Assembly: GCA_937899905.1 (NCBI GenBank)
Contig: CALCCF010000013.1
Location: 1 to 45,725 of the forward strand
Length of the DNA: 45,725 nucleotides
Direction of reading: 5' to 3'
Source of the DNA: an uncultured Phycisphaeraceae bacterium
GTDB lineage: Bacteria > Planctomycetota > Phycisphaerae > Phycisphaerales > UBA1924
The notes under the pieces were generated by a model. It ran no database searches, was not told where the DNA came from, and worked only from the letters and a program-made list of their open reading frames with translations. Position 1 is the stretch's first letter. Each line of letters starts with the position of its first letter. The translations under genes were made by a program, and so were the position numbers. This document shows positions 2,152 through 33,061 of this stretch, one piece after another.

Positions 2152-5100
2152 TCAGTCGAGGTCTTCCATCACGGCGCGGACGCCGGCCTCGAGCTGCGGA
2201 TCAACACCCTCGACCTCGTGCTGCGGCTTCTTGAGCACGACAACGTCGGGCATGGCGCCGTTGTTCTCCATGTCGGTGCCATCGGGCAGGAACCATCCAC
2301 GGAACGGGCGCCGGACGGTGGTGCCGTCGATCAGGCGGTAGGAGCCGGTCGAGATGACCGCGCCATACGTCTGCTGGCCGACCAGCGTGCCACGGCCCGT
2401 GGTCTTGATGGCGTGGGAGAAGATCTCGGCATTGGAGTAGGAGTTCTCGTTGCATAGCACGGCGATGGGGCGGGTGTAGCCGTAGATCAGACGGCGGTCG
2501 CGCGGGTAGGCGTCGGCCGGCACATCGTCGGCGTTCGCGCCGCGTGGGATGGTATAGGCGTGGCGGGGTGCGGTGAGCGAGCTGAGCAGGATGTCTGTGG
2601 TCCAGCCGCCGCCGTTGTCGCGCACGTCGATGAGCAGGCCGTCCTTACCGTTCGCGGCGGCGAAGAGGTCACGCTCGAAGTCACGCAGCGATGGCTCGTT
2701 CATGCCTCGGATGTGCAGGTAGCCAACGCGGCCGTCTGACATCTGGTCGACCATCGCGCGACGCTGTCGGACGCCATCCTCGTAGCGCAGGTTGCTATCA
2801 CCGCCCGAAGACGTCGGCACGATGAGGACGAACTGCGATCGCTCGGGGTCGGCGGGGATGATGTCCAGCAGGGTCTCCTCGCCGGAGGTGCCAGCCATCG
2901 CCTCGCCGAGGTCCATCATGGGCATGCCGCCATCACCAGCGAGCGGGTTGCCGTTGATGGCGGTGATGACGTCGCCAACCTCGAGGCGGCTGGCCTCTCG
3001 CCACGCGGGCCCCTCAGGCAGGACGTATGTCACCTCGTACCCGCCGTCGACGGGCATGGCATCAACGCCGAGGTAACCGGTGCGGATGCTCGGCGGGCTG
3101 TAGAGCTGCGTGCCGCCCCAGATGCCCAGGTGCGAGCCGTTGAGCTCGCCCATAAGCAGGCGGCCGACCTGGTAGAACTCGCTTGGCGTGCGTGTGACGC
3201 GGGCGAGTTCGAGGTAGCGCTCGGTCAGGCCGGACCAATCCAGGCCCTTCATCGTCGGGTGGTAGAACTCGCGGCCGAGCATGTTGGCGGCGTCCCGGAA
3301 CTTCTGGGCCTGCTCGGCTGCGACGTCGATGCGCACGCGGGCGTCGACGCCGAGCGTCTCGGAGCCACCGCCGCCGGGTCGGGCCGTGCCGGCCTGCCCG
3401 CTGCGGATGAACACGGCCTTCGAGCCGTTGGGCGTGACCTGGACGCGTGAGACGCCGCCGCTCTGGACGGTCTTGCGGTCCTGGCCGCGATAGTTCACCG
3501 AGAACAGACTGGTGCTGCCATCGATGCTCGTCGAGTACAGCACGCGATCGCCGCCGGGGGTGAGCGCGAGGTTGCCAGCGCCGTCGACACGAGTGAGCCG
3601 GCGGACACGCTGCCATGCGTCCTCGGCGTCGAATTCGAGCGGCTCGGGAGCTTCGTACTCCTCATCGAAGTCGGGCGTATCGATGGCGCCCTTCTTGCTG
3701 GCGGCCTTTGCGGCCGCGGTGAAGTGCTGCTCGAGCTCGTAGTCGGTCAGGCCCTCGAGCGAGCGGTCGAGCAGGATGCCGTAGACGTCGTACGACCAGT
3801 TGTTCCCCGCGCGATCGCTCAGGAACACGAGCATGCTGCCGTCGGCGCTCAGGCGCGGCGAGGTATCGATATCGGGGTGGCGCGTGAGGTTGATCGGCTC
3901 GGCGTCTTCATCGCCAAGGTCCAGCAACCAGACGTCGCTGTTGAAGTCCAGGTCTGCCACGTTGTAGACGATGTGGCGGCTGTCGCTAGCCCACTGCACG
4001 CCCGGCGTGTTCCAGCTCTCGAAGACCAGACGCTGCTCTCCGGTGGCAAAGTCATGGTGCCAGAGATCGCCGCGCTCACGCATGAACAGGAGCGAGCGGC
4101 CATCGGGTGCGGGCATCGGCGACACCTCGCGCACGTCGGTCATGACGAGCGGCTCGACATCGAAGCGGAGGGACTCGGCCCAGCGCTTGCCGTGGTCGAT
4201 CTTCTCCTCTTCCTCGGCCTCTTCGTCTTCGGTCGCTTCCTCGTCGGCAGACTCGGCATCGCCTTCCGTGTCATCGACCGCCTCTTCGGTGGTCTCTTCG
4301 GTGCCCTCCGTAGCCTCTTCGGTGGTTTCCTCCGTCGACTCCTCGGTGGCGTCTTCGGTCTCCTCCTCGACTGTCTCCTCTTCCTCGGGTTCCTCAGGCT
4401 TGATATCCTCGCGTGCAAGCGAGACCGAAGCGCGATAGATGGCGAACTCGCCGGTCTCGTCGCTGGCGAAGTAGAGGTACTGGTTGTCCGGGCTCCACGC
4501 GATGTCCTGCTCGCGGCCCGAGGTGAAGGTCACGCGGCGCGTTGGGCGGTCATCATCGGTGCTGCGGACGAACACCTCGCCGCGGGCTACGACGGCCAGG
4601 GTCTTTCCGTCTGGGCTCAAGACGGCCTCGCTCACCTGGCGGCTCAGTGTCTCGATTCGAGTGTCGAGCATCTGCATGTCGCCCGAGGCGTAGATCTCGA
4701 CGGGCTGAGGTTGGGTATCGCGACCGGTAAGGTCGAGCGTGTACAGCGTGTCCCACACCAGGAAAGTCGCGGTCGAGCCGTCGAAGGAGACGTTGAGGTC
4801 CATCACGCCGTGGCCGATGGAAAGCTCGCCCTCGGCGGGCTTGAAGTTCGTGAGGGCGCTCGGGCCGTCCGCGTCGGTGCGGCCGGCGGGGATGCGCCAG
4901 ACGTTGTTCTGGCCGTGTCGGCTGGACACATAAATGGTCGAGCCGTCGGGCAGCGCGAAGCCGTGAGCGTCGTTGCCATCGAACATGGTCAGCTGCGTGA
5001 AGCGGCCGGTCTCGGTGTCCATCTGCCAGAGGTCGCCGGCCGCGGGGCCCTGGTATGCCGGGCGGTCGGCGATGTCGCGCTGGCGGGTAAACAGGACGCG

Positions 5101-7456: not shown

Positions 7457-7643
7457 TTGCCCCCTGCAACGTCGTCCGTATCGTATTTACAGGACTCGAA
7501 GCTGCGGCTACGTCCCGATCCGCGGTGCCGCTGCAGAGAGCTGGGCCGGAGCCAAGCCCGCGAACTCTCGGCCACCGCAGACGTCTCGCAGACCACAGAC
7601 GAGCCCGCATCGCCGAGGCATGTTCCCCGCTCGCGAATCCGTC

Positions 7644-8669
7644 CTACAGCTCGGGGGCTATCTGCACGTGATGCACGCCCTTGTCAAGGCACTTCTTCAA
7701 TACTCGCACCGGCAGGAATCGCTCGATGACCTCGGCGTTCGTTTCGGAGTGCTGCGAGAGCCTGCCGGTCTTGAAGCCGCCGCCCCCGGCAAGGGCAAGC
7801 GGGAGCATGAGCTGGTCGGCGAGATAGCGCCACACCGGGACGCCCGCATCGATGTAGCGCTGCGCGTCCTTGGCGGCCTTCCCGGCCACCTTCTCCGCCG
7901 AGACGCCGCGCTCGCCGAAGCCCGTGAACACCTCGGTAATCTCCTGCCGACCGACGTCGATGCTCACAACATTGCCGGGCCCCTCGTCCTGCGTGAGCTG
8001 TCGGATCTGGAGGCACTCCTCCGGCCAACCGAGGGTCTCCGAAAGGACGCCGATCTCCCGAGTCGCGATCGACGGCGGTAAGCCCACGATCGTGGCGGTC
8101 GCGGACCGCGCAGAGATGGGCGACGCGTCCATGAGTTCGATCGGGCGCAAACGCTCGGTCGGCTCGACGTGGACACGAATGCGGCCTCCGCCCGCAGGAA
8201 AGAACCCATAGCGCTCGAGTTCGAGTCGGACGGACGGCCCCATCCGGTTGATGAGCGGCAGGAAGGCGCGCTGGAGGAAGTCCGTGCTCGGCGCATGGAT
8301 GTTGTGCGTGCCACCCGTCAAGACGACTTCGGACTCAGTGCTCGCGGTTATGAGCGCTGGGAGGATCGTTTGCAGTACCAGTGTCGTGCTTCCCGCGGTG
8401 CCGATTGAGAAGGTGAATTCGCCGCCACGAATCTTGGCGGGCGTGAACTCGAGGCTCGTCGACCCCAATGCAGCGCCAAAAACCCCGCCGGAACAGACGG
8501 CGCGCGCGGCCTCGACCGAGGTCAGGTGCTGACGCATCAGTCCCGGCTTCGGCCGTCCGGCGCGGATGTTGTCGATGCGGAACGGCTGCCCAGTGATCAT
8601 CGACAGGGAAAGCGACGTCCGCAAGATCTGCCCGCCACCTTCGCCTTGTGAGCCATCAATCTGGATCAT
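7644..8669 (-). CDS. rtcA: RNA 3'-terminal phosphate cyclase
   Basis: Converts RNA 3'-phosphate (or 2'-phosphate) ends to 2',3'-cyclic phosphates through a covalent enzyme-AMP. 341 residues, the normal family length. The N terminus IDGSQGEGGGQILRTSLSLS and the segment RPKPGLMRQHLTSVEA are hallmark RtcA motifs. The C-terminal block AGGGGFKTGRLSQHSETN contains the adenylylated histidine at about residue 307. The start overlaps the stop of the AAA gene by 4 bp, so the two are co-translated. It is the last gene of the repair operon. In other bacteria rtcA accompanies rtcB under RtcR control, but here the AAA gene and 304 bp of leader separate it from rtcB. Confidence 0.97.
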   Translation of the reverse strand: MIQIDGSQGEGGGQILRTSLSLSMITGQPFRIDNIRAGRPKPGLMRQHLTSVEAARAVCSGGVFGAALGSTSLEFTPAKIRGGEFTFSIGTAGSTTLVLQTILPALITASTESEVVLTGGTHNIHAPSTDFLQRAFLPLINRMGPSVRLELERYGFFPAGGGRIRVHVEPTERLRPIELMDASPISARSATATIVGLPPSIATREIGVLSETLGWPEECLQIRQLTQDEGPGNVVSIDVGRQEITEVFTGFGERGVSAEKVAGKAAKDAQRYIDAGVPVWRYLADQLMLPLALAGGGGFKTGRLSQHSETNAEVIERFLPVRVLKKCLDKGVHHVQIAPEL

Positions 8670-9943
8670 CTCCAGCCTCCTCGAATCCCCGAACCCCAGC
8701 GAGACCGGGGCCTCGTCCCGACTTGCGGCGGACCGGGCGCTTGGCTTTGCGAGGCCGACGTGCTGCGCCGCCAGTCTTGACGCATGAGCCGATTGATAAG
8801 CATGGCCGAGGTTGGACGCTCCATCGCCATGACCTCGTTGACGACGTCGTGCCGGTTGGGCACATGGGCGAACAGCCGATCAACGTAGTCCATCGCGGCA
8901 TCGCGATCGAGCAGTGGGACCTCTAGCTTGATGTCGGCTCGGCCGGGCCGGACCAACGCCGGGTCGAGGCGATCAACATGGTTGGTAGACATGATCAGCA
9001 CGCGCCCGTTCTGCGGCGCGATCATGCCGTCGATGCAATTGAGGAAGCCGGAAAAGGTGATCCCCGAAGCCTCTTCGTTTTCCCTCTGGTGGAAGGCGCA
9101 GTCGACGTCCTCGATCAGCACGATGGAGTCTTCGCGGACGCCCTCGAAGGCGCTCACGAGTTCTTCGTCCGAGCGCATGTCGGCCAGCGGAATCACGGCC
9201 AGCCTCCGATTCAGCGTCGACGCGAGCGAATGGGCGATCGAGGTCTTGCCCGTTCCCGGCTCACCGTGCAGCAGAATGCCGAGCCGCCACGGGATACCCA
9301 GCCGCTCGTAGTCCTCGCGGCTCTCGGAGAATTGCCGGACTCGCAACTCCAAGCCATCAAAGAACTCGTTGGGTAGGCAGAGCGTGTTCGGGGCGCGCTT
9401 GGGCAGCGACATCGTGTTGCTCGAACCATACTTGTTGCACAGATCGACCAACTGGCGATCATCCATCACGTTCGCCCGCGCCTTGGCGGCGTCGAGCATG
9501 CGCGCGAGATCCTCGCGTGTGCCGAAGAGCACCTCGACGTTGATGATGAACCGGCGCACCAGGTCCGCAGTGGCCCCGGAGGACTCCTCTCGCTGGACCG
9601 AGACCTTGCACCAACGCCCGCAAAGGCGCGCCCAGAAGTCGTCCGAGCCGGCGGCGAAGGCCGAAGTGGCAGCGCTCTCGTCATAATCGTCGGAAGTCGT
9701 GCGCACTTCGAGTGTCCTCGGCCCGCCCGGCCGGAACGCGCCGTCCGTCAGGAGGCCTAGCCATGCGTCGTAGAGGGGGTGCTTCTCGCGCACCTCGATG
9801 ACACGGGTAAAGAAGCTCCGGCAGAAGCGGAACGCCTTCGTCGGCAAGGAACGGATCTGGTATGCGAGCCAGCCGACGATCATGAGCGTCAGGCCTCCCT
9901 GGACCATTGGGGACTCTTGAATGATGTTCTCGATCCAGTTCAT
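8666..9943 (-). CDS. BCS1-like membrane-anchored AAA ATPase
   Basis: 425 residues. One N-terminal transmembrane helix (GGLTLMIVGWLAYQI, residues 15-30) is followed by a BCS1-type N domain (~30-200) and an AAA core: Walker A HGEPGTGKTS at ~226, Walker B IVLIEDVDCAF at ~272, then FSGFLNCIDGM, MSTNHVDRLDPALVRPGR (sensor 1 and arginine fingers) and a basic disordered tail. BCS1 in mitochondria translocates folded Rieske protein; bacterial relatives are poorly known. It overlaps rtcA by 4 bp and follows rtcB, so a role in RNA repair or damage response is inferred from context only. An in-frame ATG at 10057 would add 38 residues that look non-coding. ATG 9943 has only a weak ribosome site. Confidence 0.85.
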   Translation of the reverse strand: MNWIENIIQESPMVQGGLTLMIVGWLAYQIRSLPTKAFRFCRSFFTRVIEVREKHPLYDAWLGLLTDGAFRPGGPRTLEVRTTSDDYDESAATSAFAAGSDDFWARLCGRWCKVSVQREESSGATADLVRRFIINVEVLFGTREDLARMLDAAKARANVMDDRQLVDLCNKYGSSNTMSLPKRAPNTLCLPNEFFDGLELRVRQFSESREDYERLGIPWRLGILLHGEPGTGKTSIAHSLASTLNRRLAVIPLADMRSDEELVSAFEGVREDSIVLIEDVDCAFHQRENEEASGITFSGFLNCIDGMIAPQNGRVLIMSTNHVDRLDPALVRPGRADIKLEVPLLDRDAAMDYVDRLFAHVPNRHDVVNEVMAMERPTSAMLINRLMRQDWRRSTSASQSQAPGPPQVGTRPRSRWGSGIRGGWR

Positions 9944-10247
9944 ATCGACACACCGAGGGCGGAACGCGTCGAGACTTCGACGCGCCAGCGGTTTACAGGC
10001 AAGGACGCGGCGCAAACACACATAGTGTTCGGGCGCGACATGAGCACAATCGCTCATGACAAATCTGGGTTGTGGGGTGGATGGCTCCACCGGCGTCGCC
10101 GGCGGAGCGGCGACAGGTCAAAGTGAGTTACGGTACTCGTGCAGCAAGGCATACCTCCTGTCGTGGGGGGGTGGATTATGAATGATGGAACACGCAAGTC
10201 AACCCGCGAATCAAAATTTATAAGAACGTCTTTCGTCAGCGTCCGAG
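9944..10247 (-). other. 304-bp structured leader between rtcB and the AAA gene
   Basis: No convincing gene is present. Two strong hairpins are readable on the minus strand: GCTCC-G-CCGGC with GCCGG-T-GGAGC around a GAC loop (10084-10108, 11 bp including one G:U) and CGCGTCGA/TCGACGCG with a 4-nt loop (9965-9984, 8 bp perfect). A short frame, MPCCTSTVTHFDLSPL..., begins next to ACAGGAGGT at about 10150 and ends in an ATGA overlap with an in-frame upstream ATG of the AAA gene. It might be a leader peptide, but the spacing to its ATG is too short for an ideal site. Confidence 0.5.
10175..10202 (-). promoter_or_regulatory. Sigma70-like promoter upstream of the AAA-rtcA pair
   Basis: On the minus strand, TTGACT (10202-10197) and CATAAT (10180-10175) are separated by 16 bp and match the -35 and -10 consensus at five of six positions each. 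It would start transcription near 10168, upstream of the leader hairpins, giving the AAA ATPase and RtcA a supply independent of the sigma54 promoter. Confidence 0.45.
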
Positions 10248-11744
10248 TCAATCGTCCGCCTTGTCGCCGTCCTTGATCACAAACTTCGCTTCAAGTCGCG
10301 CCACCTCGGATGCGAGGCCGGCGAGTTCGACGGACTTGAGTACCTCGTCGAAGTCCTTGTACGCGGCGGGCGCCTCGTCGATCGGGTAGTTGCGGCAGTT
10401 GGTCAGGATGTCGCGGTCATCGAACGACGCGTTGATCTCGGCCTGGTCGAGCGTGCGCGATGCGGCCTTTCGGCCCATGACACGACCCGCACCGTGGTTC
10501 ACGCTGTAGCACGACGCTTCGGCTCCCGGGTTTGCGACCATCACCGAGGAGCCGTCCTGCGGGTTCCCCGGCAGCAGGATCGGGTGGCCCGTGGCCGCGA
10601 ACGGCGTTCCCTTGAGCGCGTGGTGTCCACCGGGGAACGCGCGGGTCGCGCCCTTGCGATGCACCCAGTGGGGCTTGTTGTCGACGATCTCTTCACGGGC
10701 AATGTTGTGGCTGATGAAGTACACCAGCCGCCCATCGATTCCGGGCAGGACCTCCTGGAACGCTTCGAGAACGAGCGCGTTGATCAGGAGGTGGTTGAGC
10801 GTCGCGAAGTTTGCACCGATCGCCATGTCGTCCAGGTACGCGTTCGCCTGGTCGCTCCCGAGAGGCGCGTGCACCAGCTGTCGGTCTCCACCGGGAAGCG
10901 GGATGCCCCACTTGGTGAAGTGCTCCTCCAGGACCCGGAACTGTCCGGCAGCCATGTCGTGCCCGAGCCCGCGAGAACCGCAGTGCGACAGGAATGCAAC
11001 GCCGCCGTCACGCAGGCCGAACGTTTCTGCCGCCTCGCGCACGCGATCGCCGTCGCGAAGGCGAACCACCTCGCACTCTCCGAAGTGGTTTCCGCCGCCG
11101 TACGAACCGAGCTGGCGGATCTTCTTGGGGAATCGCTCGTAGAAGCGTGCATTCTGCTTGTGTACGTCGAGGCGCGTGCGCAGCGCGTCCGTGGTGCCAT
11201 CGTGGCCCGTGTGGACGCTGTCCTCGCATCGGTCGGCCCACTCTGGCGGGATGCCAAGCTCGGTGCAGATCGCCTCGGTTGCTCCTTCCGTCACGATGCG
11301 CGTGCCCAGCTCGTGGGACACGTTCCGCGACCTCGGCACGCTGCGCTGCCCGCGACCCGTACCCGTGGGCGTGCGCTCGCAGATCGCGTTGATGATCGCG
11401 CGTCGAGTGCGCACATCGCGCACGGCATCTTCGTCGATGTCCAGCGCGAGCAGGCTCATCGAGCACTTGATGTCGACGCCGACCGGCCCAGGATAGATGT
11501 GCGACGGGCTTGCCATGACACACCCGACGGGCGTGCCATATCCAACGTGCGCGTCGGGGTTGAGTACGAGATGGGAGACCCCGGGTGCCATGGCCGAGTT
11601 CACGGTCTGCTTGAGGCATCCGGAATCGAAGGTCTCGCGGATCTCGGGCGTGCCGATCACGGTCACGGGCTTGCGATCGTCCGGGAGCGGCAGGATCGCG
11701 GTGGCTTCGCCGGTCTCGACAAAAGGCGTGTTCGACTCGGTCAT
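10248..11744 (-). CDS. rtcB: RNA-splicing ligase RtcB
   Basis: A GTP- and metal-dependent ligase that joins 2',3'-cyclic phosphate or 3'-phosphate ends to 5'-OH ends, for example cleaved tRNA halves. 498 residues. Conserved blocks are all present: DAHVGYGTPVGCV, GVDIKCSM (metal-binding Cys), GSYGGGNHFGE, FLSHCGSRGLGH, HRKGATRAFPGGH, and the guanylylated histidine in NHGAGRVMGRK. ATG 11744 is chosen because GGAGGAG lies 8 bases upstream; a longer frame runs back through the tRNA-Arg sequence and is not real. The gene follows tRNA-Arg by 30 bp, within the same minus-strand transcript as rsr and the Y-like RNAs. Confidence 0.98.
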   Translation of the reverse strand: MTESNTPFVETGEATAILPLPDDRKPVTVIGTPEIRETFDSGCLKQTVNSAMAPGVSHLVLNPDAHVGYGTPVGCVMASPSHIYPGPVGVDIKCSMSLLALDIDEDAVRDVRTRRAIINAICERTPTGTGRGQRSVPRSRNVSHELGTRIVTEGATEAICTELGIPPEWADRCEDSVHTGHDGTTDALRTRLDVHKQNARFYERFPKKIRQLGSYGGGNHFGECEVVRLRDGDRVREAAETFGLRDGGVAFLSHCGSRGLGHDMAAGQFRVLEEHFTKWGIPLPGGDRQLVHAPLGSDQANAYLDDMAIGANFATLNHLLINALVLEAFQEVLPGIDGRLVYFISHNIAREEIVDNKPHWVHRKGATRAFPGGHHALKGTPFAATGHPILLPGNPQDGSSVMVANPGAEASCYSVNHGAGRVMGRKAASRTLDQAEINASFDDRDILTNCRNYPIDEAPAAYKDFDEVLKSVELAGLASEVARLEAKFVIKDGDKADD

Positions 11745-11774: not shown

Positions 11775-11849
11775 CAGCCTCGGCAGGACTCGAACCTGCG
11801 ACCTCCGCGTTCGTAGCGCGGCGCTCTGATCCAACTGAGCTACGAGGCT
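11775..11849 (-). tRNA. tRNA-Arg(ACG)
   Basis: A 75-nt cloverleaf with no mismatches in the main stems. The acceptor AGCCTCG/CGAGGCT is perfect. The D stem is GCTC/GAGC. The anticodon stem CCGCG/CGCGG has the loop CTACGAA, giving anticodon ACG (to be edited to inosine). The T arm is GCAGG-TTCGAGT-CCTGC, and the discriminator is G. No CCA is encoded; GTTTTC follows. It lies 30 bp upstream of rtcB and starts immediately after the last base of the neighbouring Y-like RNA, so RNase P cleavage at its 5' end would also make that RNA's 3' end. Confidence 0.9.
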
Positions 11850-11988
11850 CCAATGAGCAGCGACAAGGGTGTGAGAAACGGGATGTGCTCTGCCTCTGAG
11901 CTACCGAGTACACGAGGTGTGACTCGGGCGGGATTCGAACCCGCGACCTCATCGTTATGTAGTTCCTCTGGCATTCGCTGCTGGTCGG
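11850..11988 (-). ncRNA. Y-RNA-like element Y4 with circularly permuted tRNA domain
   Basis: In 5' to 3' order on the minus strand: the closing stem CCGA-CC-AGCAGCGA (11988-11975) pairs with TCGCTGCT-CA-TTGG (11863-11850). ATGC (11974-11971) comes next, then a 7-bp helix GAGGAAC/GTTTCTC (11968-11962 with 11879-11873). Inside is a tRNA-like domain in permuted order: half-stem GATG (11953-11950), AGGTC, T arm GCGGG-TTCGAAT-CCCGC, acceptor-like stem CCGAGT/ACTCGG (11927-11922 with 11909-11904) closed by an ACAC-CTC-GTGT hairpin, D arm GCTC-AGAGGCA-GAGC, and CATC closing the anticodon-like stem. Bacterial Y RNAs are known to bind Ro and to mimic tRNA with the ends placed at the anticodon position. 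GAATG on the 5' side and CTTGTC on the 3' side resemble the Ro-binding strand motifs. Transcription is unproven. Confidence 0.82.
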
Positions 11989-11996
11989 TATCCGAA

Positions 11997-12070
11997 TCTG
12001 GGAGGGAGGATTCGAACCTCCGGCCTCGTGCACCCAAGGCACGCGCTCTGCCAAGCTGAGCTACACCCAG
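11997..12070 (-). tRNA. tRNA-Pro(UGG)
   Basis: A 74-nt cloverleaf. The D stem is GCTC/GAGC. The anticodon stem CGTGC/GCACG has the loop CTTGGGT, giving anticodon TGG followed by G37, as in proline tRNAs. The T arm is GGAGG-TTCGAAT-CCTCC. The acceptor CTGGGTG/CTCCCAG has a C1:G72 pair, typical of proline tRNAs, but one T6:T67 mismatch. The discriminator is A, with no encoded CCA. Three T residues separate it from Y3 upstream and 8 nt separate it from Y4 downstream. The mismatch leaves open whether it is a working tRNA or a processing signal and decoy. Confidence 0.88.
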
Positions 12071-12073
12071 AAA

Positions 12074-12217
12074 GTGAATCGGAGACAAGGGGTGGTGAGA
12101 CGTTCGCGCTCTTCCATTTGAGCTACCGTCCCTTGAGTGGTGAACGAGACGGGCGGGACTCGAACCCGCAACCTCGAGGACCTAAACCTGTAGTCCCACG
12201 TGCATTCTCCGATCCAC
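12074..12217 (-). ncRNA. Y-RNA-like element Y3 with circularly permuted tRNA domain
   Basis: The closing stem is 12 consecutive base pairs, GTGGATCGGAGA (12217-12206) with TCTCCGATTCAC (12085-12074), with one G:U. Next come ATGC (12205-12202) and a 7-bp helix GTGGGAC/GTCTCAC (12199-12193 with 12101-12095). The tRNA-like part, in permuted order: a small AGG-TTTAGGT-CCT hairpin, the T arm GCGGG-TTCGAGT-CCCGC (12169-12153), the acceptor-like stem CCGTCTC/GGGACGG (12152-12146 with 12132-12126) closed by a 13-nt loop, and the D arm GCTC-AAATGGAA-GAGC (12123-12108). The anticodon-like stem is only 3 bp. CCCCTTG lies in the 3' internal loop. The overall plan equals Y4, with only partial sequence identity. 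The element ends 3 nt before tRNA-Pro. Confidence 0.82.
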
Positions 12218-12229
12218 GATCACACAAAC

Positions 12230-12317
12230 AGAACGAGTCGAGGCGGCAAGTCGATCGTCGAGACCTGTCTTGGATCACAACCATGGAGTCCCGACTGCAT
12301 CCGATCCGACCCATTCC
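12230..12317 (-). ncRNA. Short Y-like hairpin Y2, no tRNA domain
   Basis: A closing stem of 12 bp with three G:U pairs, GGAATGGGTCGG (12317-12306), pairs with TCGACTCGTTCT-side bases (12241-12230); a 2x2 internal loop and CGG/CCG continue it. ATGC (12300-12297) and, four bases later, GGGACT (12292-12287) follow, with CGGGACT pairing to GGTCTCG (12265-12259). CTTG is at 12250-12247. The apical loop is about 21 nt, with no T or D arm. It shares the core of Y3 and Y4, so I call it a Y-like element. It could be a degraded Y RNA or a minimal Ro ligand. Confidence 0.6.
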
Positions 12318-12364
12318 GCTGAGTTGTCCTTTCCTTCGCTGACGACAAACCGAGAACGGGAGGC

Positions 12365-12442
12365 CGCGGTGGCGGCGTGGCAAGGGGTTACCGAGACTGG
12401 GGGTCAGGATGTAGTCCCGGCGGCATCCCCGCCGCCACCGCG
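12365..12442 (-). ncRNA. Short Y-like hairpin Y1, no tRNA domain
   Basis: A perfect 13-bp closing stem, CGCGGTGGCGGCG (12442-12430) with CGCCGCCACCGCG (12377-12365). ATGC (12426-12423) is followed after four bases by GGGACT (12418-12413). The inner 8-bp stem CCGGGACT/AGTCTCGG (12420-12413 with 12398-12391) closes a 14-nt loop, and CCCCTTG is on the 3' side (12387-12381). Alternative pairings exist: GGCGGC/GCCGCC locally, and CCCAGTCTC with an upstream GAGACTGGG. It starts at the base directly after a GC-rich hairpin that follows rsr. Confidence 0.6.
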
Positions 12443-12490
12443 CGGGCCCAGTCTCCTGAGCCCGGGCCCCCGGCCCGATTGCCGGGGGCC
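12443..12490 (-). other. Twin GC-rich hairpins after the rsr stop
   Basis: Two adjacent stem-loops start 14 bp after the rsr stop. GGCCCCCGGC/GCCGGGGGCC is a perfect 10-bp stem with a 6-nt loop (12490-12465), and CGGGCTC/GGGCCCG has 7 bp with one G:U and an 8-nt loop (12464-12443). No T-run follows, so they are unlikely to be a full terminator. They may protect the 3' end of the rsr message or act as an attenuator before the RNA block. Confidence 0.55.
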
Positions 12491-12503: not shown

Positions 12504-14066
12504 CTAGATCACCTGCTCGTTGATCAGGTCGACCCAGTGTTGTGTTCCCGAGTCGCTGCGAGCAAACTGGCTGATCACCTTGAACACGGCGTCGGAGAAC
12601 CCTCCGACGTTCAAGATTTCCTGGCGGTTGGGCGCCTGCGTCGACCCGTACGGCTGCACGTCGATGCACACCATCCGTGCCTTGGGCGAGCGAGCCTTGA
12701 CTTGCGTCCACTCGTTCATGGTCTCCGTACCCCGACGCCACGATCCCTGCGATGTGTCGATCCATGACTGGTTGTCCGAGACATAGATCACCGTGTCCAC
12801 CTCCGACTTGCGTCGGTTGAGCTCCGCCATCGGTGCAGAGCAGTCCGTTCCGCCTGCGGGCAGGCTCGCGAGCTTCTCGGCGTTGGTCATCACGGTGTCC
12901 CGCGGGTTTAACCGGGTACGCACCACCTCGTCGTGGAACGGGATGACCTCCGCGTCGGGGTTCTTTCGGAGCACCGCCGCCGCGACGAGTGCCGCAACGT
13001 CGACGCACCGAACCGCGCTGGTCGAGCCCTTGCGGTACCCCGTCACCGGGGAGTGCATCGAGCCCGATACGTCGACGAACACGAACGTCTTGCCAGGCAG
13101 TTCCGGTACGTTCTGCACCGAGACCTCCAACGCGAGTTCCAGGGCTCGGAGGATCTGCCGCGGTACCTCACTCGACGCCATCATGTAGGCCGTGAGCAGT
13201 TGGTACGGGAACGCGCGTGAGCGCCGTACCTGTTCCGCGTCAGCGAGCCTCTTCGCGATGAGCTTGACCATCTTCGAGTCCTCGAGCACCCCATGACGCA
13301 CAAAAGTGTTCAGGTTCATTCGCGTCATCTGCCATGAGCCGTTGCGAGCGATCTCCTTCCACGCCGCTTTGTCCAGCGGCAACGACGTCAACATCTGGAA
13401 GGGCACGTTGGGCACGTCTGACGATTCGCCGGCCTTGTACGCCTCGTACTTCCGAACGATGTCTGGCAGCATCGATGCGTCGTGATCTCGCCCAAGCAGG
13501 TAGCCGTACAGCGCCTCGCGGCTCTGGCTCGCCGGCTTGGGGTGGACCATCTTCACGATGTCGGCCAACGACGGATCGCTGCCAACCGAACCGAAGAAGA
13601 TCGCCTCATCCGATCGCGACTCGAGCCACTGCCGGACCATGCGCTTGGGCAGGCTTCCGAGTGACTTCCTCGCGACCGCCCCGGAGCGCATGATCTGCAC
13701 GAAGTTGCGAAGCATCTTCGGCGAGTCGATCACGCGGTCGAAGACCTCAGCCATGAGCCCGGGCGAAACCACGCTGAGCACCGCACACAAGAACGCGGGC
13801 AGGTCCTTCATGTGGCCCTCACGCCGGCAGTACAGCGCCACCCGCGCGATGAACTCTGGGCTCACCGCGCCGCAGAGATCCAGCACGGTGTCGAGCTGGT
13901 CCTCGGCCGAGGCGTAGAACGTCGAGTTCATGCACCCCGTCGCGGCGTACTGCGCGAGCATCTGCTCGGGCGTCATCGCGTAGGCCGTGCCTCCCGCCTC
14001 GTTGACGGTGTCGGTCGCCTGGGGCCGGGGTCCGCGAAACGAATTGAAGAGTGTCTTGTTTGCCAT
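12504..14066 (-). CDS. rsr: Ro60/TROVE domain RNA-binding protein
   Basis: Ro-type ring protein that binds misfolded RNA ends in its central hole and Y RNAs on its outer surface; bacterial Rsr works with Y RNA and exonucleases in RNA quality control. 520 residues. Residues ~20-330 are the HEAT-like TROVE domain (TPEQMLAQYAATGCMNSTFYAS and later the helical repeats). The C-terminal von Willebrand A domain has a MIDAS motif, FVFVDVSGSMHSP, at ~340 and GGTDCSAPM. ATG 14066 is chosen for CAGGAGAC upstream; a longer frame to 14099 would reach past the expected transcript start. It is the first gene after the sigma54 promoter, and its predicted ligands are encoded directly downstream. Confidence 0.96.
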   Translation of the reverse strand: MANKTLFNSFRGPRPQATDTVNEAGGTAYAMTPEQMLAQYAATGCMNSTFYASAEDQLDTVLDLCGAVSPEFIARVALYCRREGHMKDLPAFLCAVLSVVSPGLMAEVFDRVIDSPKMLRNFVQIMRSGAVARKSLGSLPKRMVRQWLESRSDEAIFFGSVGSDPSLADIVKMVHPKPASQSREALYGYLLGRDHDASMLPDIVRKYEAYKAGESSDVPNVPFQMLTSLPLDKAAWKEIARNGSWQMTRMNLNTFVRHGVLEDSKMVKLIAKRLADAEQVRRSRAFPYQLLTAYMMASSEVPRQILRALELALEVSVQNVPELPGKTFVFVDVSGSMHSPVTGYRKGSTSAVRCVDVAALVAAAVLRKNPDAEVIPFHDEVVRTRLNPRDTVMTNAEKLASLPAGGTDCSAPMAELNRRKSEVDTVIYVSDNQSWIDTSQGSWRRGTETMNEWTQVKARSPKARMVCIDVQPYGSTQAPNRQEILNVGGFSDAVFKVISQFARSDSGTQHWVDLINEQVI

Positions 14067-14267: not shown

Positions 14268-15884
14268 ATGAAGGCGAAACCGACGGTCCGACCCACGGTC
14301 GTGCTCGGCATCCTGGGCACCACCCTCGACACCGGGAAGGGCCCCAAGCGGTGGGAGCGTTGGAGGCCGACGGTCTCGCTCTGCCAGCACGAGGACTTCG
14401 TGGTCGATCGCCTGGAGTTGATCCACGCCAAGCGTGCGACCGCGCTGGCTGAGACCATCGTTGAAGACATCGCGGCCGTCTCACCCGAGACCACCGTCCG
14501 CCAGCACGTCGTCGACATGGCCGACCCCTGGGACTTCGAGGAGGTGTACGGCGCCCTGCACGACTTCGCCGCGGGCTACGCGTTCGATACAGAGCGGGAG
14601 GACTACCTCGTCCACATCACCACGGGCACGCATGTCGCACAGATCTGCAACTTCCTCCTGACCGAGGCCCGGTACTTCCCGGCTCGACTGATCCAGACGA
14701 GCCCCCCGCGCGGGAACAAGGGAAAGAGCACCGACAGCCCAGGCCGTTTTAGCATCATCGATCTGGACCTCTCTCGCTACGATCGACTGGCGGCTCGCTT
14801 CGAGCGTGAGCACTCCGACGCGATCGCGTCGCTCAAGGGCGGCATTGAGACGCGGAATTCGGCGTTCAACCAACTCATCGAGCGGATCGAGCACGTCGCC
14901 GCCCGCACGACCGATCCCATCCTGATCATGGGACCAACCGGAGCCGGCAAGTCGCGGCTCGCAGGGCGCATCTTCGAGTTGCGGAAGCATCGCCGACTCA
15001 CGGATGGCGACCTCGTCGAGGTGAACTGCGCGACACTGAGGGGCGATGGAGCGATGTCCGCATTGTTCGGGCACAAGAAGGGCGCGTTCACCGGAGCCGC
15101 TTCGGATCGATCGGGACTGCTGCGCGCCGCCGACGGCGGGATGCTCTTCCTCGATGAGATCGGTGAGCTTGGTCTCGATGAGCAGGCCATGATGCTCCGG
15201 GCGATCGAGGAGAAACGGTTCCTTCCGCTGGGTGCGGACGCCGAGGTGGGGAGCGACTTTCAGCTGATCGCCGGAACCAATCGTGACCTCGCCGAACGCG
15301 TGCAAGGCGGCGAGTTCCGCGAGGACCTGCTCGCCAGGATCAACCTCTGGACGTTCGAGCTCCCGGCACTGCGCGATCGGCCCGAAGATATCGAGCCCAA
15401 CCTCGAGCACGAGCTGGAGCGGTTCGCTCGGGAGCGCGGCCAGCTCATCCGATTCAGCCGCGAGGCGCGCGCGTCGTTCCTGGACTTCGCCACCGGTCCC
15501 GAAGGGCACTGGCCGGGCAATTTTCGCGATCTGGGTGCGGCCCTGACACGCATGGCGACGCTCGCCCCTGGCGGCCGAATCTCACGCGAAGTCGTCCAAG
15601 AGGAAGTCGAGCGGCTGAGGCGATCGTGGCAGGGTGGCGACAACTCCAGAAGTGGAGGGCTCGTCGCCCGCCTGCTCGGCGAGGCACGATCAAGGGAGAT
15701 CGATCTCTTCGATCGCGTGCAGCTGGAGACCGTTCTGGAAGTCTGCCAGCGCTCACGGTCGATGTCCGATGCCGGACGCACGCTGTTCGCTGCATCTCGC
15801 TCTCGGCGTACCTCGGTCAACGACTCCGATCGCGTCCGGAAGTTTCTCGCCAAGTACGGGCTGACATGGGATGAACTCCGTTAG
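14268..15884 (+). CDS. rtcR: RtcR, CARF-domain sigma54-dependent activator
   Basis: Switches on the divergent repair operon. 538 residues. Residues ~1-180 form the CARF sensor (VVLGILGTTLDTGKGPKRWERWRP at the start; HITTGTHVAQICNFLLTEARYFPARL at ~116-141). The AAA+ core has Walker A GPTGAGKS (222-229), the sigma54-contacting GAFTGA loop (272-277) and Walker B LFLDEIGE (293-300), followed by LARINLWTFELPALRDRPEDI. The last ~50 residues resemble a helix-turn-helix. In Salmonella and E. coli RtcR responds to RNA with damaged ends, such as tRNA halves carrying 2',3'-cyclic phosphates. ATG 14268 has GGAG eight bases upstream. It is divergent from rsr, with 201 bp between the starts. Confidence 0.97.
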   Translation: MKAKPTVRPTVVLGILGTTLDTGKGPKRWERWRPTVSLCQHEDFVVDRLELIHAKRATALAETIVEDIAAVSPETTVRQHVVDMADPWDFEEVYGALHDFAAGYAFDTEREDYLVHITTGTHVAQICNFLLTEARYFPARLIQTSPPRGNKGKSTDSPGRFSIIDLDLSRYDRLAARFEREHSDAIASLKGGIETRNSAFNQLIERIEHVAARTTDPILIMGPTGAGKSRLAGRIFELRKHRRLTDGDLVEVNCATLRGDGAMSALFGHKKGAFTGAASDRSGLLRAADGGMLFLDEIGELGLDEQAMMLRAIEEKRFLPLGADAEVGSDFQLIAGTNRDLAERVQGGEFREDLLARINLWTFELPALRDRPEDIEPNLEHELERFARERGQLIRFSREARASFLDFATGPEGHWPGNFRDLGAALTRMATLAPGGRISREVVQEEVERLRRSWQGGDNSRSGGLVARLLGEARSREIDLFDRVQLETVLEVCQRSRSMSDAGRTLFAASRSRRTSVNDSDRVRKFLAKYGLTWDELR

Positions 15885-29505: not shown

Positions 29506-30216
29506 CTACGCAACGCTCTCCCGGGCGAAGCCGGCCAGGGCCGAATCGACGAAGGCCGCAACCCGATCCGGATGCGTAAGCGTGATCAGGTGTCCCGCAT
29601 CCTCGATGGTCTCATCCGCTTCTGAACGCATATCCGGGATGACATCATCGTGCGCACCGTGGATGTGCCGGAGCGGCACGTCAAAGCTGGGTGGGCCCTG
29701 CCAGTGCGCGCACGCCGCGGCGGACCAACTCAGGAAAGCCGGCTCATTGGCGGACGCCATATCGACAAGCAACTGCGTTGCAGCATCGGCGAGCCCCTCA
29801 CGCTTCGCAAACCGCCGAGCCACGGGCGTGTACAACCGCCGAGCGATGAACCCGGGGACGAGCGCGCCAATCCTCTGTTGCCGGACGAAACCGGGCAAGA
29901 TCTGGTGCCGACCTCGAACGCCGCAGATGAGCACGACGCCCAGAGGCTTCGGATCCAGCACTGCCGCCAGCTCTTGCGCGAGTTGCCCCCCAAAGCTGAA
30001 GCCCCCGACGGCGTAGCGACCATCTTCGGGCAGGCTCGGGCCAAGATGCTCGGCGTATCTCCGCGCGTAGGTGCGCAGGTCTTCCCCGGGCTCGGGCTCA
30101 ATGAACGCTGGTGTACGCATGTTCGAGCAGCGCTCGACCAGCGGCGCAAACAGCCGCTCGTCGGCGGCAAGGCCCGGCCAGAGCAGCAACGGGATGTTCG
30201 TTGTGGGCTGCGTCAC
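29506..30216 (-). CDS. Alpha/beta hydrolase
   Basis: 236 residues. IPLLLWPGLAADERLF gives the oxyanion turn, VGGFSFGGQLAQELA the nucleophile elbow (Ser at ~91), HGAHDDVIPD the aspartate and EDAGHLITLTHP the histidine. BioH-like in size, but the exact family is not recognised. The stop is 2 bp from that of the convergent renalase-like gene. Confidence 0.85.
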   Translation of the reverse strand: MTQPTTNIPLLLWPGLAADERLFAPLVERCSNMRTPAFIEPEPGEDLRTYARRYAEHLGPSLPEDGRYAVGGFSFGGQLAQELAAVLDPKPLGVVLICGVRGRHQILPGFVRQQRIGALVPGFIARRLYTPVARRFAKREGLADAATQLLVDMASANEPAFLSWSAAACAHWQGPPSFDVPLRHIHGAHDDVIPDMRSEADETIEDAGHLITLTHPDRVAAFVDSALAGFARESVA

Positions 30217-30242
30217 GGGGCATCATTGCGCCCGAGTCTCGC

Positions 30243-31181
30243 TCACGCAGATTCCGCGAGGATGCGCTCGAGCCTCTGGCTGACGATCCCGCCGCTGGCC
30301 TCGCGCTCGAGGCGACGGAACTTGCTCACCACGCGGCTGGACGCCCATCGCCACCGATGCTCGAATCGCGTGATCCGCGGCAGCGACCGCGTTCGCACGA
30401 GCTCGGCCGGGTGGCGGAGCAGCATATCGAGATAGAAGCTCGCGAAGTAACGAGCGCGGTGCGATGCTCGATCTGCCTCAAAAGTTAGCGACGAGCCAAG
30501 GGAGAACCATCGTGCGAAGCCCGGCGAGATCTCGGAGAATCTCGGCTGCACGATGGCCCGCTGCTCGTGCCATAGCAAGAGCGTGTTGCCCGCCCAAATG
30601 AACGCCTCAGCCCGCTCTGGGTCGTCTCGCAGAGCGCGACGCCCCAGGTCGATCAGCTCGAATCCGCGCAGCATCGGCCGATCCTCCGGCTCTGTCAAGA
30701 GGCTGCGCAGCGCGCGCATGCCATGCGATGGCATCATGTACGCCGCGTGGGCCCAGAAGATGTCGCGGAAGATGCCGTTGTTGACCGTGCGGATGAGCTC
30801 AAGGTCCTCGAAAGGGACACCCAGCCAGCGCCCGCGGCTCCCGCGTGGCGCTTCGGGCTTGACGAGCGCGCCCGTTTCATCCACCCGAAGCTTGAACGGC
30901 GTCAGCAGCAGCCGCGCGTGATACGACGCAAACGCCGCCATGCCACACCACTTGAACAACCGTGGTCTGTTGAGGTACATCCACGAGTAGGCGGCCGAAA
31001 TCTCAAGGTTGCGATAGAAGATGCACGGCTGATTCGACAGCAGGAGGTCCGTCGCGTCGCACCACTGCTCGACGCTCTTCGCGCGCTTGGCCGCGTCCAT
31101 AAACCGTTCGACACGAGCGCCACGCTCGGCAATCCCGGGCAAAGGTGGTGGGTGGCTGGTGGGCAACTGAGCCTCGCTCAT
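30243..31181 (-). CDS. Unknown conserved protein
   Basis: 312 residues, not recognised. It appears mostly helical and rich in Trp, Phe and Arg (IFYRNLEISAAYSWMYLN, NGIFRDIFWAHAAYMM, FSLGSSLTFEADRASHRARYFASFYLDMLLRHP). There is no signal peptide, clear transmembrane helix, or metal motif. The sequence is compatible with a soluble or peripheral helical protein. Its start overlaps the stop of the phosphatase gene by 4 bp, so the two are co-translated and may work together, for example as a partner in phosphatase signalling. Confidence 0.75.
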   Translation of the reverse strand: MSEAQLPTSHPPPLPGIAERGARVERFMDAAKRAKSVEQWCDATDLLLSNQPCIFYRNLEISAAYSWMYLNRPRLFKWCGMAAFASYHARLLLTPFKLRVDETGALVKPEAPRGSRGRWLGVPFEDLELIRTVNNGIFRDIFWAHAAYMMPSHGMRALRSLLTEPEDRPMLRGFELIDLGRRALRDDPERAEAFIWAGNTLLLWHEQRAIVQPRFSEISPGFARWFSLGSSLTFEADRASHRARYFASFYLDMLLRHPAELVRTRSLPRITRFEHRWRWASSRVVSKFRRLEREASGGIVSQRLERILAESA

Positions 31182-33061
31182 GCCCCGACCGCGTGGCGGA
31201 CGATCGCGACCACCGTGATATCGTCGGTCTGGTTGTCGCCCTCGAAGTCTCGCACCGCACGAACGACACGATCGGTGATTTGGTGCGCCGACAGCGGCGC
31301 AGCACTACGCAGGGTCTCGTGCAAGCGATCGGTCTCGAAGATCTCGCGTTCGTCACCGGTGCCAGGTGACGCCTTGGCGGCCTCAAGCACACCGTCGGTC
31401 ACGAGCACGAGCGAGCGCCACGACGGATCGAGCTCGAGATGCTCGGTCCGGGCCTGCAAGTGGACATCCTTGAACGCGCCCACGATCGTGCCCGTGGGCG
31501 GGGCGGCGGCCGACACGCGCCCATCTGCGGTGATCTGCGCAGCGTGCGGATGTCCCGCGTTGGCAAACGTGATTCGACCGCTTGGCTCGATCGCGAGGAT
31601 CTTCATCGTGATGAAGCTGCCGTCGATGTCGTGCGTGGTTTCCAGCAACAGGTCGTTGATGGCAACGACCAAATCACCGGGATGCTCGCACGTGTCGGCC
31701 GCCGTACGAAATGCCGTGCGCGCAACGGCCATGAGCATCGCCGCACGGGCACCTTTCCCCGAAACATCGGCGATGCAGACGATCAGCCGGCCCTTGGCGT
31801 CGACGAGGTAGTCAAAGAAGTCGCCCGCGACGCCCGATGCCGGCACGTTCTGCCCAGCGATGTCGAGCCCGAAGGGACGCAGTTCATCCTCTGGGATCGG
31901 CTCGGGCAGCAACGACTCCTGCACCGAACGAGCCACCCGCAACTCGCCCTCGGCGAACTCGCGACGCGCGACCTCTTCCAGTCGACTTGCTGTGAGGTGT
32001 GTGAGTTGTGAGCTCGTCCCCTCGAGCACATCATCGAGCACGCGCAGCTCGAGTGGCGCGTGCGTTGCGACGTGCTCATAGTCCTTGCCCTCGCCGAGCC
32101 GCTTGGCGGCCTCGGAGATGCGCTCAATCGGCGCCGTGATTCGGCGGGCCGTGAACCATACGGCGCCCACGATGAGCAGCAAACCCAGCACCATGATCGT
32201 CGCCGATCTTGTAACTTGCGTGTACACCGGTGCCAAGAGCTCCGCTTCGGGCACGGCCGTGACCAGCGTCCAGCCGGTTTCGCCAACGGGGTGGTAGTAA
32301 ATCATGTAGGGCTCAGGCGTCACGAACCCAACCGGCATCCTCGTCTTGCCGGCCTCGCCAGAGAGTGCGGTGCGAGCGGCCTCGGCGATCGACGGGCGGT
32401 CCATGTCGCGTGCGAAGCTGAAGACATCGACGTCCGAGGCCAACACCTCGCGGTTGTAGTGCCACAGATACCGTCCCGCATCATCCAGGAGCAGCAAGAG
32501 GCTCCGATCCACGATCGGCTCACCCAGCCGCGCCTCGAACGCCTCGGCGGGAATCTCGATCAGCGCCTGTGCGGTGACGGCATCCTGGCTGATGATCGGC
32601 GTCATCCAGATCGCGCGACGGTCCGCGCCGTCGGGTTTGACACTCGCCCAGGCGCCCGGCTCAAGTCCAACGGCCGCCGGAAGGAAGCGCGGTTCCGCGA
32701 GCGCGCCGTCCACACCACGCTCGTACCGCTTCAACCCCTCGGTACCGGCACCGGAATAAACCAGCTCGACCGAAGTGACGATCGGAAGCCGAGCGAACAT
32801 GCGTTCGGCGAGCGTGTCTGCGGCCCGGCTGGGTGTTGCGGCCAGTGCAACCGTCTCTGCGACATCGCTCGCGGTGGTCGCCGCCGCATCGAGCTCATCC
32901 GAAAGCGCGCTCGCGCGCCATTCGAGCGCCTCTCGATACCGCTCGTCCGTCTGCTGCAGGGCGCGATCCTTCGATTCGATGAACCCATAGCCCAGCACCG
33001 CCACGTACACCAGCGTGATCGAGCCGACCATCCAGACTAGCAGTCGTTGGCGAATCGTCAC
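31178..33061 (-). CDS. SpoIIE-type phosphatase with periplasmic sensor and HAMP
   Basis: 627 residues. TM1 (RLLVWMVGSITLVYVAVLGYGF, 6-27) and TM2 (ATIMVLGLLLIVGAVWFTA, ~285-303) bracket a ~255-residue extracytoplasmic sensor that looks like a Cache domain (PIISQDAVTAQALIEI, PYMIYYHPVGETGWTLVTAVPEAEL). HAMP follows (RRITAPIERISEAAKRLGEG). The catalytic PP2C/SpoIIE domain starts at ~390: VPASGVAGDFFDY, VCIADVSGKGARAAMLM, FANAGHPHAA and LVLVTDGVLEA carry the metal-binding aspartates. Such proteins dephosphorylate anti-anti-sigma factors. No target gene is adjacent. Confidence 0.92.
   Translation of the reverse strand: MTIRQRLLVWMVGSITLVYVAVLGYGFIESKDRALQQTDERYREALEWRASALSDELDAAATTASDVAETVALAATPSRAADTLAERMFARLPIVTSVELVYSGAGTEGLKRYERGVDGALAEPRFLPAAVGLEPGAWASVKPDGADRRAIWMTPIISQDAVTAQALIEIPAEAFEARLGEPIVDRSLLLLLDDAGRYLWHYNREVLASDVDVFSFARDMDRPSIAEAARTALSGEAGKTRMPVGFVTPEPYMIYYHPVGETGWTLVTAVPEAELLAPVYTQVTRSATIMVLGLLLIVGAVWFTARRITAPIERISEAAKRLGEGKDYEHVATHAPLELRVLDDVLEGTSSQLTHLTASRLEEVARREFAEGELRVARSVQESLLPEPIPEDELRPFGLDIAGQNVPASGVAGDFFDYLVDAKGRLIVCIADVSGKGARAAMLMAVARTAFRTAADTCEHPGDLVVAINDLLLETTHDIDGSFITMKILAIEPSGRITFANAGHPHAAQITADGRVSAAAPPTGTIVGAFKDVHLQARTEHLELDPSWRSLVLVTDGVLEAAKASPGTGDEREIFETDRLHETLRSAAPLSAHQITDRVVRAVRDFEGDNQTDDITVVAIVRHAVGA

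Follow-up and report, generated by a model that had tools for sequence, protein, structure and literature searches.

Two tRNA genes alternate with YrlA-type Y RNAs between rsr and rtcB in a predicted RtcR-type RNA-repair operon of an uncultured Phycisphaeraceae bacterium

A contig of 45,725 bases from an uncultured Phycisphaeraceae bacterium (CALCCF010000013.1, assembly GCA_937899905.1), hereafter the window, carries an array of small RNA elements at positions 11775-12490, in the spacer between rsr, which encodes a Ro60-like ring protein, and the RNA ligase gene rtcB. In this spacer, two short Y RNAs are followed on a single strand by two pairs of a long, YrlA-type Y RNA and a tRNA gene (YrlA, tRNA-Pro, YrlA, tRNA-Arg). 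The complete order on the minus strand is a sigma-54-type site, rsr, short Y RNA 1, short Y RNA 2, YrlA 1, tRNA-Pro(TGG), YrlA 2, tRNA-Arg(ACG), rtcB, an AAA ATPase gene and rtcA. Judging from its gene content, the locus is an RNA-repair operon of the RtcR/sigma-54 type. With a probability of about 0.5, we read it as a damage-induced operon that jointly delivers repair enzymes, Rsr-Y RNA scaffolds and spare tRNAs, the role of the tRNAs as spares being the inferred part of this reading.

The motif ATGC-N4-GGRACT is found four times in the window, always on the minus strand (12426-12413, 12300-12287, 12205-12192 and 11974-11961) and exactly where an earlier reading made from the letters without database searches (the sequence-only reading) had placed it; 100 dinucleotide shuffles gave a mean of 0.15 and a maximum of 1. 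A compensating strand followed by CTTG, 7-9 nt apart, is present in all four copies and reads GTCTC in copies 1-3. The TTCTC claimed for copy 4 did not hold: in the models GTTTC faces GGAAC, and TTCTC sits two bases further along. Closing stems are likewise present in all four copies, but the claimed lengths of 13, 12, 12 and 8+4 pairs could not be reproduced, since the closing pairs of copies 1-4 number 14, 13, 7 and 7 in energy folding and 13, 10, 12 and 8 in an ungapped scan. The z values of energy folding for the four copies (-4.6, -0.2, -1.0 and -2.4) are strong for only one or two of them, and the lowest-energy fold of copy 3 lacks the GGGAC:GTCTC helix. Because energy folding alone is weak, the case for structure rests on conservation.

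Fifteen short elements from other genomes were gathered by a motif and stem rule and aligned (alignment A2), and a covariance model (R1) was built from them without any window sequence. R1 finds the four elements in the window (44.6, 44.5, 39.1 and 35.8 bits; E from 2.7e-10 to 7.7e-8) and gives no other match there at E up to 10. Over the whole genome (3.63 Mb, 95% complete) it gives three matches, every one at the rsr-rtcB locus. A model from the same set minus the close relative L089 (R3), the alignment of which misplaces one row (L159:7724-7822), finds three of the four elements and nothing else (44.0, 39.4 and 36.9 bits; E from 2.6e-9 to 1.7e-7), missing YrlA 1. In A2, 12 of 16 pairs vary on both sides and 95.0% of cells pair, values not attained in any of 500 shuffles, and the pairing falls to 32-49% when the partner is shifted by 1-3 columns. 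Since A2 was chosen by a stem rule that favors paired cells, the matches in the window are the cleaner test. A further model (R2), built from 16 YrlA elements of other genomes (alignment A3, where 16 of 28 pairs vary on both sides), matches the two long elements of the window with 115.4 and 107.4 bits. The motif and stem descriptor undercounted Y RNAs, and the covariance models were used in its place. The sequence-only reading had proposed a covariance search of relatives, and this search came out positive.

According to these analyses, the elements carry beside rsr the bulged Ro-binding helix AUGC / GGRAC:GUYYC / CUUG and are bacterial Y RNAs in the wide sense. Short Y RNA 1 (12365-12441, minus strand) has 44.5 bits with R1 (E 3e-10) and 44.0 bits with R3. 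Short Y RNA 2 (12231-12315, minus strand) has 44.6 bits with R1 (E 2.7e-10) and 39.4 bits with R3, and a counterpart of it is present in L089. Assignment of the short elements to YrlB (RF02565) was rejected, element 1 reaching 21.5 bits against a cut-off of 97 and element 2 not being listed. YrlB is likewise a short Y RNA that neighbors rsr within an rtcBA operon, but the short class of the window has its own consensus. Members of this class are present in several phyla as well as in predicted viral contigs. Since Rfam models, where tried, scored this class under their cut-offs, Y RNAs near rsr are probably under-annotated. In the locus L159 (Rhodothermales), tandem Y RNAs were observed at 7624-8186, some short ones with an apparent extra apical hairpin, which is possibly a further subtype.

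Both long elements match the RF02553 (YrlA) model over its full length (1-114), with tRNA-like D, T and acceptor-like arms, and these arms are conserved in the 16 relatives of A3. The second one (11854-11981, minus strand) passes the RF02553 cut-off of 69 with 75.3 bits (E 6e-17) and has 107.4 bits with R2, 39.1 with R1 and 36.9 with R3. The first one (12076-12212, minus strand) misses this cut-off with 64.0 bits (E 1.1e-13) and is called YrlA-type without formal membership; it has 115.4 bits with R2 and 35.8 with R1 and is not listed by R3. Binding of Rsr and PNPase by the window YrlA is predicted by analogy; rsr adjoins the Y RNAs, and a PNPase gene is present in the genome. The sequence-only reading was thus right in seeing Y RNAs between rsr and rtcB and in separating a short class from a long one; it overlooked the YrlA type, tRNA-like nature of the long class and the two tRNA genes that alternate with it inside the very region it described (12070-11997 and 11849-11775). 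The Y RNA and tRNA identities are well supported.

The tRNA-Pro(TGG) gene (11997-12070, minus strand; 62.2 bits with RF00005, also called by ARAGORN) and the tRNA-Arg(ACG) gene (11775-11849, minus strand; 68.3 bits) both exceed the RF00005 cut-off of 29 bits, have fully paired anticodon stems and fall within the range of 43-76 bits of the genome's 47 tRNA matches (Rfam). Each is the genome's second copy of its anticodon, as a single further Pro(TGG) and a single further Arg(ACG) are among these matches. A recent origin of the spacer tRNAs from these same-anticodon genes was ruled out by identity comparison: the operon tRNA-Pro is 80% identical to the copy on contig C65, and the operon tRNA-Arg is 68% identical to the copy on C56. 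The operon tRNA-Pro is 97% identical to the operon copy of L089 and 92% to that of L090 (with slightly different ends, these identities and that to the own-genome copy are 96, 91 and 78%), and the eight best non-operon Pro(TGG) genes in a search of 60 relatives reach 82-85%. The operon tRNA-Arg has 93, 85 and 83% identity to the operon tRNA-Arg of L090, L073 and L109. The idea that every operon tRNA resembles operon copies of other genomes more than the other copy in its own genome was checked against non-operon genes as a control, which supports it for Pro and for the Arg of L090, not clearly for the Arg of L073 and L109. A shared operon lineage of the tRNA-Pro, and of the tRNA-Arg of the closest relative, is thus well supported by sequence identity.

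The tRNA-Arg genes of the window and L109 keep the fold, with both bases changed in three acceptor pairs (1, 2 and 5) and in one pair of the T stem. The anticodon loops differ between the operon gene and the other copy in the genome (CTACGAA vs CTACGGA for Arg, CTTGGGT vs TTTGGGA for Pro). The best nine non-operon matches to the tRNA-Arg(ACG) gene carry the anticodons TCG, CCT, CCG and TCT, and the operon gene may derive from an Arg tRNA with another anticodon by anticodon change. On contig C40 of the genome G000, at about 29,900-31,200 (L068, L010), a few tRNA-like genes, most of them with low scores, lie close together (His, Tyr, Leu and a further gene whose anticodon is unreadable). His(GTG) and Tyr(GTA) are each present there as a second copy, a weak YrlA match adjoins the group, and the whole is perhaps a mobile tRNA cluster.

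For comparison with relatives, loci were taken from a pattern scan of named genomes (the best 80 loci) and from a class-wide search of 298 genomes. The titles of the best 80 loci name planctomycetes, verrucomicrobia, acidobacteria, myxobacteria and others, and the closest Rsr proteins among them (80 and 77% identity) come from entries named Phycisphaerae and Phycisphaerales. The counts are based on 92 loci (the window among them) out of 97; L091, L141, L098 and L162 were dropped as copies of other loci and L088 as the second contig of an already counted genome. Both rsr and rtcB are in reach in 63 of the 92 distinct loci, which gives 63 complete intervals. Of 292 R1 matches, 285 were used; the seven weakest (E 0.0057 to 0.18), including L076 9280-9408 with 108.7 bits for R2, were omitted, so the Y RNA counts are slightly low. 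The number of R1 matches per complete interval is zero in 1, one in 10, two in 8, three in 14, four in 25, five in 4 and six in 1 interval, and short matches (at most 95 bases with R1) are mixed with long ones in 43 of 63. The claim of the sequence-only reading that a four-member array is undescribed was overstated: four is the commonest number, with exactly four in 25 intervals and more in 5. The array size is therefore not peculiar to the present genome, given that at least four Y RNAs are found in 30 of 63 intervals.

Placement of the spacer tRNAs by chance is unlikely, because 0.005 same-strand tRNAs are expected in 763 bp and because, in 54 complete rtcR-bearing loci, the interval is 9.5 times denser in tRNAs than the rest of the loci (16 in 52.7 kb vs 20 in 624 kb); the associated p-values treat loci as independent, which they are not, as will be seen from the array loci below. 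A credible tRNA was found in nine complete intervals, Arg(ACG) in seven and Pro(TGG) in four of them. The raw count was 10 of 63, from which L084 was removed, its tRNA call overlapping a Y RNA; the ARAGORN calls of tRNA-Gly(acc) in L084 and tRNA-Leu(taa) in L150, which overlap Y RNAs, were treated as false. In the window, the distance from the YrlA closing stem to the tRNA is 6 nt in both pairs, and the distance from the tRNA to the next YrlA is 13 nt. The YrlA-to-tRNA gap is 5 and 2 nt in L089, 6 and 11 nt in L090, and 6 nt in L078. Gaps of 2-11 nt from YrlA to tRNA and of 3-14 nt from tRNA to Y RNA thus recur in the window, L078, L089 and L090, the latter gap being 12-14 nt in the window, L089 and L090.

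The remaining genes of the operon surround this spacer. The rsr gene (12504-14063, minus strand), whose ATG start was picked by conservation in an alignment (A1), encodes TROVE and vWA domains (Pfam vWA_Ro60, E 1e-22; TROVE, E 4.7e-11). Downstream of the spacer lie rtcB (10248-11744, minus strand; Pfam RtcB, E 1.6e-101), a gene for a BCS1-like AAA ATPase (8666-10090, minus strand; Pfam AAA, E 7.7e-23, with a weak BCS1_N match) and the RNA 3'-phosphate cyclase gene rtcA (7644-8669, minus strand; Pfam RTC, E 4.5e-80). The ATPase gene overlaps rtcA by four bases, and its best match in PADLOC is IetA (E 4.2e-14, across the AAA domain). Divergent from the operon is rtcR (14268-15884, plus strand), coding for a CARF-type sensor joined to a sigma-54 activator (Pfam RtcR, E 2e-84; Sigma54_activat, E 3.1e-47; PADLOC RtcR--CARF_AAA_HTH, E 4.8e-256). 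The gene content of rtcR, rtcB and rtcA is that of an RtcR-type RNA-repair operon.

Upstream of rsr, a -24/-12 promoter-like site, TGGCACGCCCCATGCA (14117-14102, minus strand), agrees with 11 of 12 consensus positions, has GG-N10-GC spacing and is the sole match of its pattern in the window, where 0.01 is expected; by this sequence match, a sigma-54 promoter stands before the first gene. Sites with at least 10 of 12 positions were searched from 260 bases before to 30 bases after the approximate rsr start in 86 of the 92 loci (those with at least 400 bases before rsr). Of the 63 loci that have rtcR, 49 contain such a site, and of the 23 that lack rtcR, 1 does, as compared to 0.3% for shuffled sequence. 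What the DNA shows directly is the presence of the Y RNAs and tRNAs, of the sigma-54-type site and of the divergent rtcR, together with the conservation of Y RNAs and site in relatives. In Salmonella, RtcR is activated by 5' tRNA fragments with 2',3'-cyclic phosphate ends (PMC7790460) and drives a sigma-54 promoter ahead of rsr (PMC9879122). By analogy, the operon of the window would be induced by damaged tRNA.

In the mechanism that we propose, damage to tRNA would yield fragments that activate RtcR, for which tRNA broken in the anticodon loop is the established type of signal. A single transcript would run over the whole spacer. RNase P and the 3'-end enzymes that cut at each tRNA would also help to set the YrlA ends; the close YrlA-tRNA spacing suggests such trimming. 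RtcB and RtcA from the operon would mend RNA ends, and Rsr would be supplied along with the Y RNAs, which would dock on it via the conserved bulged helix. In the known system, the tRNA-like part of YrlA binds PNPase and its stem holds Rsr (PMC8394870); the same part would tether Rsr to PNPase here, and the short Y RNAs, having no tRNA-like part, would occupy Rsr without tethering. The tRNA-Pro and tRNA-Arg would act as spare isoacceptors that refill the pool after tRNA breakage. Phage tRNAs with altered anticodon loops have been proposed to escape anticodon nucleases (PMC10264068), and by analogy the anticodon-loop differences of the operon copies may help them to escape a nuclease.

Several observations weigh against this spare-tRNA reading. 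Credible tRNAs are present in only 9 of 63 complete intervals, so the system needs no spacer tRNAs in general. The operon itself is patchy, rsr being found in 16 of the 298 genomes of the class, counting the present one; the class-wide search listed five genomes of the same genus and found rsr in none of them. As for the tRNA lineages, the operon tRNA-Pro of L087 is only 71-73% like that of the window, lower than the own-genome copy, and the operon tRNA-Arg has only 61-68% identity to those of L076, L083 and L087. Identities of 79-83% are reached by the nine best tRNA-Arg genes that relatives carry outside the operon, none of them with the anticodon ACG, so only the Arg of L090 stands out clearly and an operon lineage of tRNA-Arg beyond it (L073, L109) is weak. 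Single mismatched pairs occur in the operon tRNAs (T-T in the window Pro, C-A in L109 Arg, A-C in L090 Arg and T-C in L073 Arg). Some relatives show wider spacing, with distances of up to 187 and 256 nt between a Y RNA and the following tRNA and of up to 181 nt between a tRNA and the following Y RNA, the value of 187 nt being inflated by a YrlA in L073 that R1 missed. A simple scan of the spacer found neither sigma-70-like promoters nor terminators, an absence that carries little weight as evidence.

A different association of tRNAs with rsr was found where rtcR is absent. The sequence before rsr spans 3 kb or more in 74 loci, 56 with and 18 without rtcR; five or more same-strand tRNAs lie upstream of rsr in none of the former and in 13 of the latter. 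In these 13 loci the arrays comprise 8-31 tRNAs, about 30-300 bases separate rsr from the end of the last tRNA or Y RNA before it, and at least one Y RNA match lies upstream of rsr in 10 of them (none in L080, L157 and L166). Twelve have acidobacterial names, so the array loci represent few independent events; the thirteenth, L080, belongs to the window's order, and no rtcB was found in its stretch. Arrays are also present in L165 (Sandaracinaceae), L118 and L150, all with less upstream sequence. In the genome G298 (locus L146), 20 of the 24 array tRNAs have a same-anticodon partner elsewhere with only 54-71% identity, which makes this array, by sequence, a second, divergent tRNA set; the remaining four may seem unique because the genome copy is incomplete. 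The genome G066, which contains L080, has 78 tRNA matches overall, 32 of them within the fetched rsr stretch. A tRNA array unit is a cluster of 20 or more tRNA genes, and the window operon with its two tRNAs is not one.

Two further genes were observed in array loci. In L146 (Pyrinomonadaceae), a protein with a borderline HEPN match, which is not RtcB, is encoded after rsr behind the 24-tRNA array (7618-8835, plus strand). In L166, an HNH endonuclease gene lies within the tRNA array (3843-4592, plus strand); HNH endonucleases within mycobacterial tRNA clusters have been reported (PMC9569102).

A broader proposal takes the window and the array loci together and should be regarded as tentative, with the odds against it. 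It holds that planctomycete and acidobacterial RNA-repair operons are repair-and-replace systems: when anticodon nucleases break the tRNA pool, one switch would turn on the ligase and cyclase, exonuclease-directing Rsr-Y RNAs and spare tRNAs whose anticodon loops differ from the housekeeping ones and perhaps escape the nuclease. Loci that lack rtcR would instead have a second set of tRNAs next to rsr, close to completeness in the largest cases.

The tight spacing also fits an explanation in which the spacer tRNAs are mainly cutting sites, where RNase P and the 3'-end enzymes free YrlA and the rtcB message and the tRNA product is secondary. The tight YrlA-tRNA gaps of the window, L089, L090 and L078 and the 12-14 nt from tRNA to Y RNA in the window, L089 and L090 agree with it, as does the median gap of 40 nt between Y RNAs (142 gaps) in loci without such tRNAs. 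We nevertheless consider it unlikely, since credible tRNAs are missing from 54 of 63 complete intervals, which means that Y RNA processing needs none, and since Pro and Arg anticodons and mostly paired stems are kept beyond the needs of a cutting site.

An equally doubtful explanation is that rsr, Y RNAs and tRNAs came from large phages with rsr-bearing tRNA arrays and that the two tRNAs are leftovers, mildly useful or neutral. Of 61 predicted viral contigs that encode an rsr relative, several of them near-copies of one another, 28 have at least five tRNAs within the fetched stretch (up to 8 kb on each side), and R1 gives 73 matches in the 54 of these contigs that were searched. The divergence of the G298 array tRNAs from the same-anticodon genes of their genome and the patchy occurrence of rsr within the class speak for the same origin. 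However, the operon also holds rtcR, a sigma-54-type site, rtcB and rtcA, while viral rsr loci have an rtcR match in 0 of 61 and an rtcB match in 2 of 61, and the paired changes and the 92-97% identity of the operon Pro genes speak for selection. One predicted viral contig (L183:12606-13107) was seen to carry four tandem short Y RNA matches with 142-base spacing about 3 kb downstream of rsr.

It is improbable that YrlA and the spare tRNAs act as bait for an anticodon nuclease or another tRNA-binding enzyme, a decoy role that the Salmonella authors proposed for the tRNA-like part of YrlA (PMC7790460). Nothing found favors a decoy over supply, and the anticodon stems of the operon tRNAs are normal and fully paired. 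The operon tRNA-Pro also has C1-G72 and A73, which we take to be tRNA-Pro identity features. Finally, the idea that the four cores are a coincidental repeat, for which one could cite the unexceptional folding energy of two copies, is already refuted by the 0.15 matches expected, by the model from other genomes that finds all four and nothing else, and by the strong covariation.

The RNA-repair operon and both kinds of Y RNA were already known. The Salmonella operon rsr-yrlBA-rtcBA contains two Y RNAs, one with a tRNA-like domain, and resembles the window in the order of rsr, Y RNAs, rtcB and rtcA, in the divergent rtcR and in the sigma-54 promoter before rsr (PMC7790460, PMC9879122). The window differs in having four Y RNAs, two spacer tRNA genes and an AAA ATPase gene between rtcB and rtcA; the term "tRNA gene" is absent from both Salmonella papers (PMC7790460, PMC9879122). 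Physical linkage of tRNAs to an Rsr/TROVE gene is known from an archaeal survey, with a TROVE gene in 20 of 29 tRNA clusters (PMC6333295); the survey does not mention RtcB, and the window has only two tRNAs, which are set between Y RNAs. In Anabaena, a trn operon of 26 tRNAs and rtcB share the stress repressor TrcR and are co-induced under translational stress, so that spare tRNAs and RtcB likewise belong to one stress circuit; the regulator is another one, rtcB and the tRNAs lie at separate loci, and "Y RNA" does not occur in the paper (PMC10272220). Anti-nuclease tRNA arrays of phages and plasmids similarly provide extra divergent tRNA copies that possibly outlast anticodon-nuclease attack (PMC10264068, PMC12803027), whereas the tRNAs of the window lie inside an RtcR-type repair operon on a bacterial contig. 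A full-text literature search, which did not cover the original Y RNA papers and is no proof of novelty, yielded no description of an RtcR operon in which tRNA genes and Y RNAs alternate. Chen in 2014 is said to have found at least one tRNA-like Y RNA per species.

The extra tRNAs in the operon bear on its purpose and on why Ro60 and Y RNAs are carried at all. Because they are encoded inside the operon, the tRNA pool is indicated as the thing defended; repair proteins, RNA scaffolds and replacement tRNAs may be made together upon tRNA damage. The finding names two tRNAs for assay, and the split between rtcR-bearing loci and rtcR-less loci with tRNA arrays is a testable pattern.

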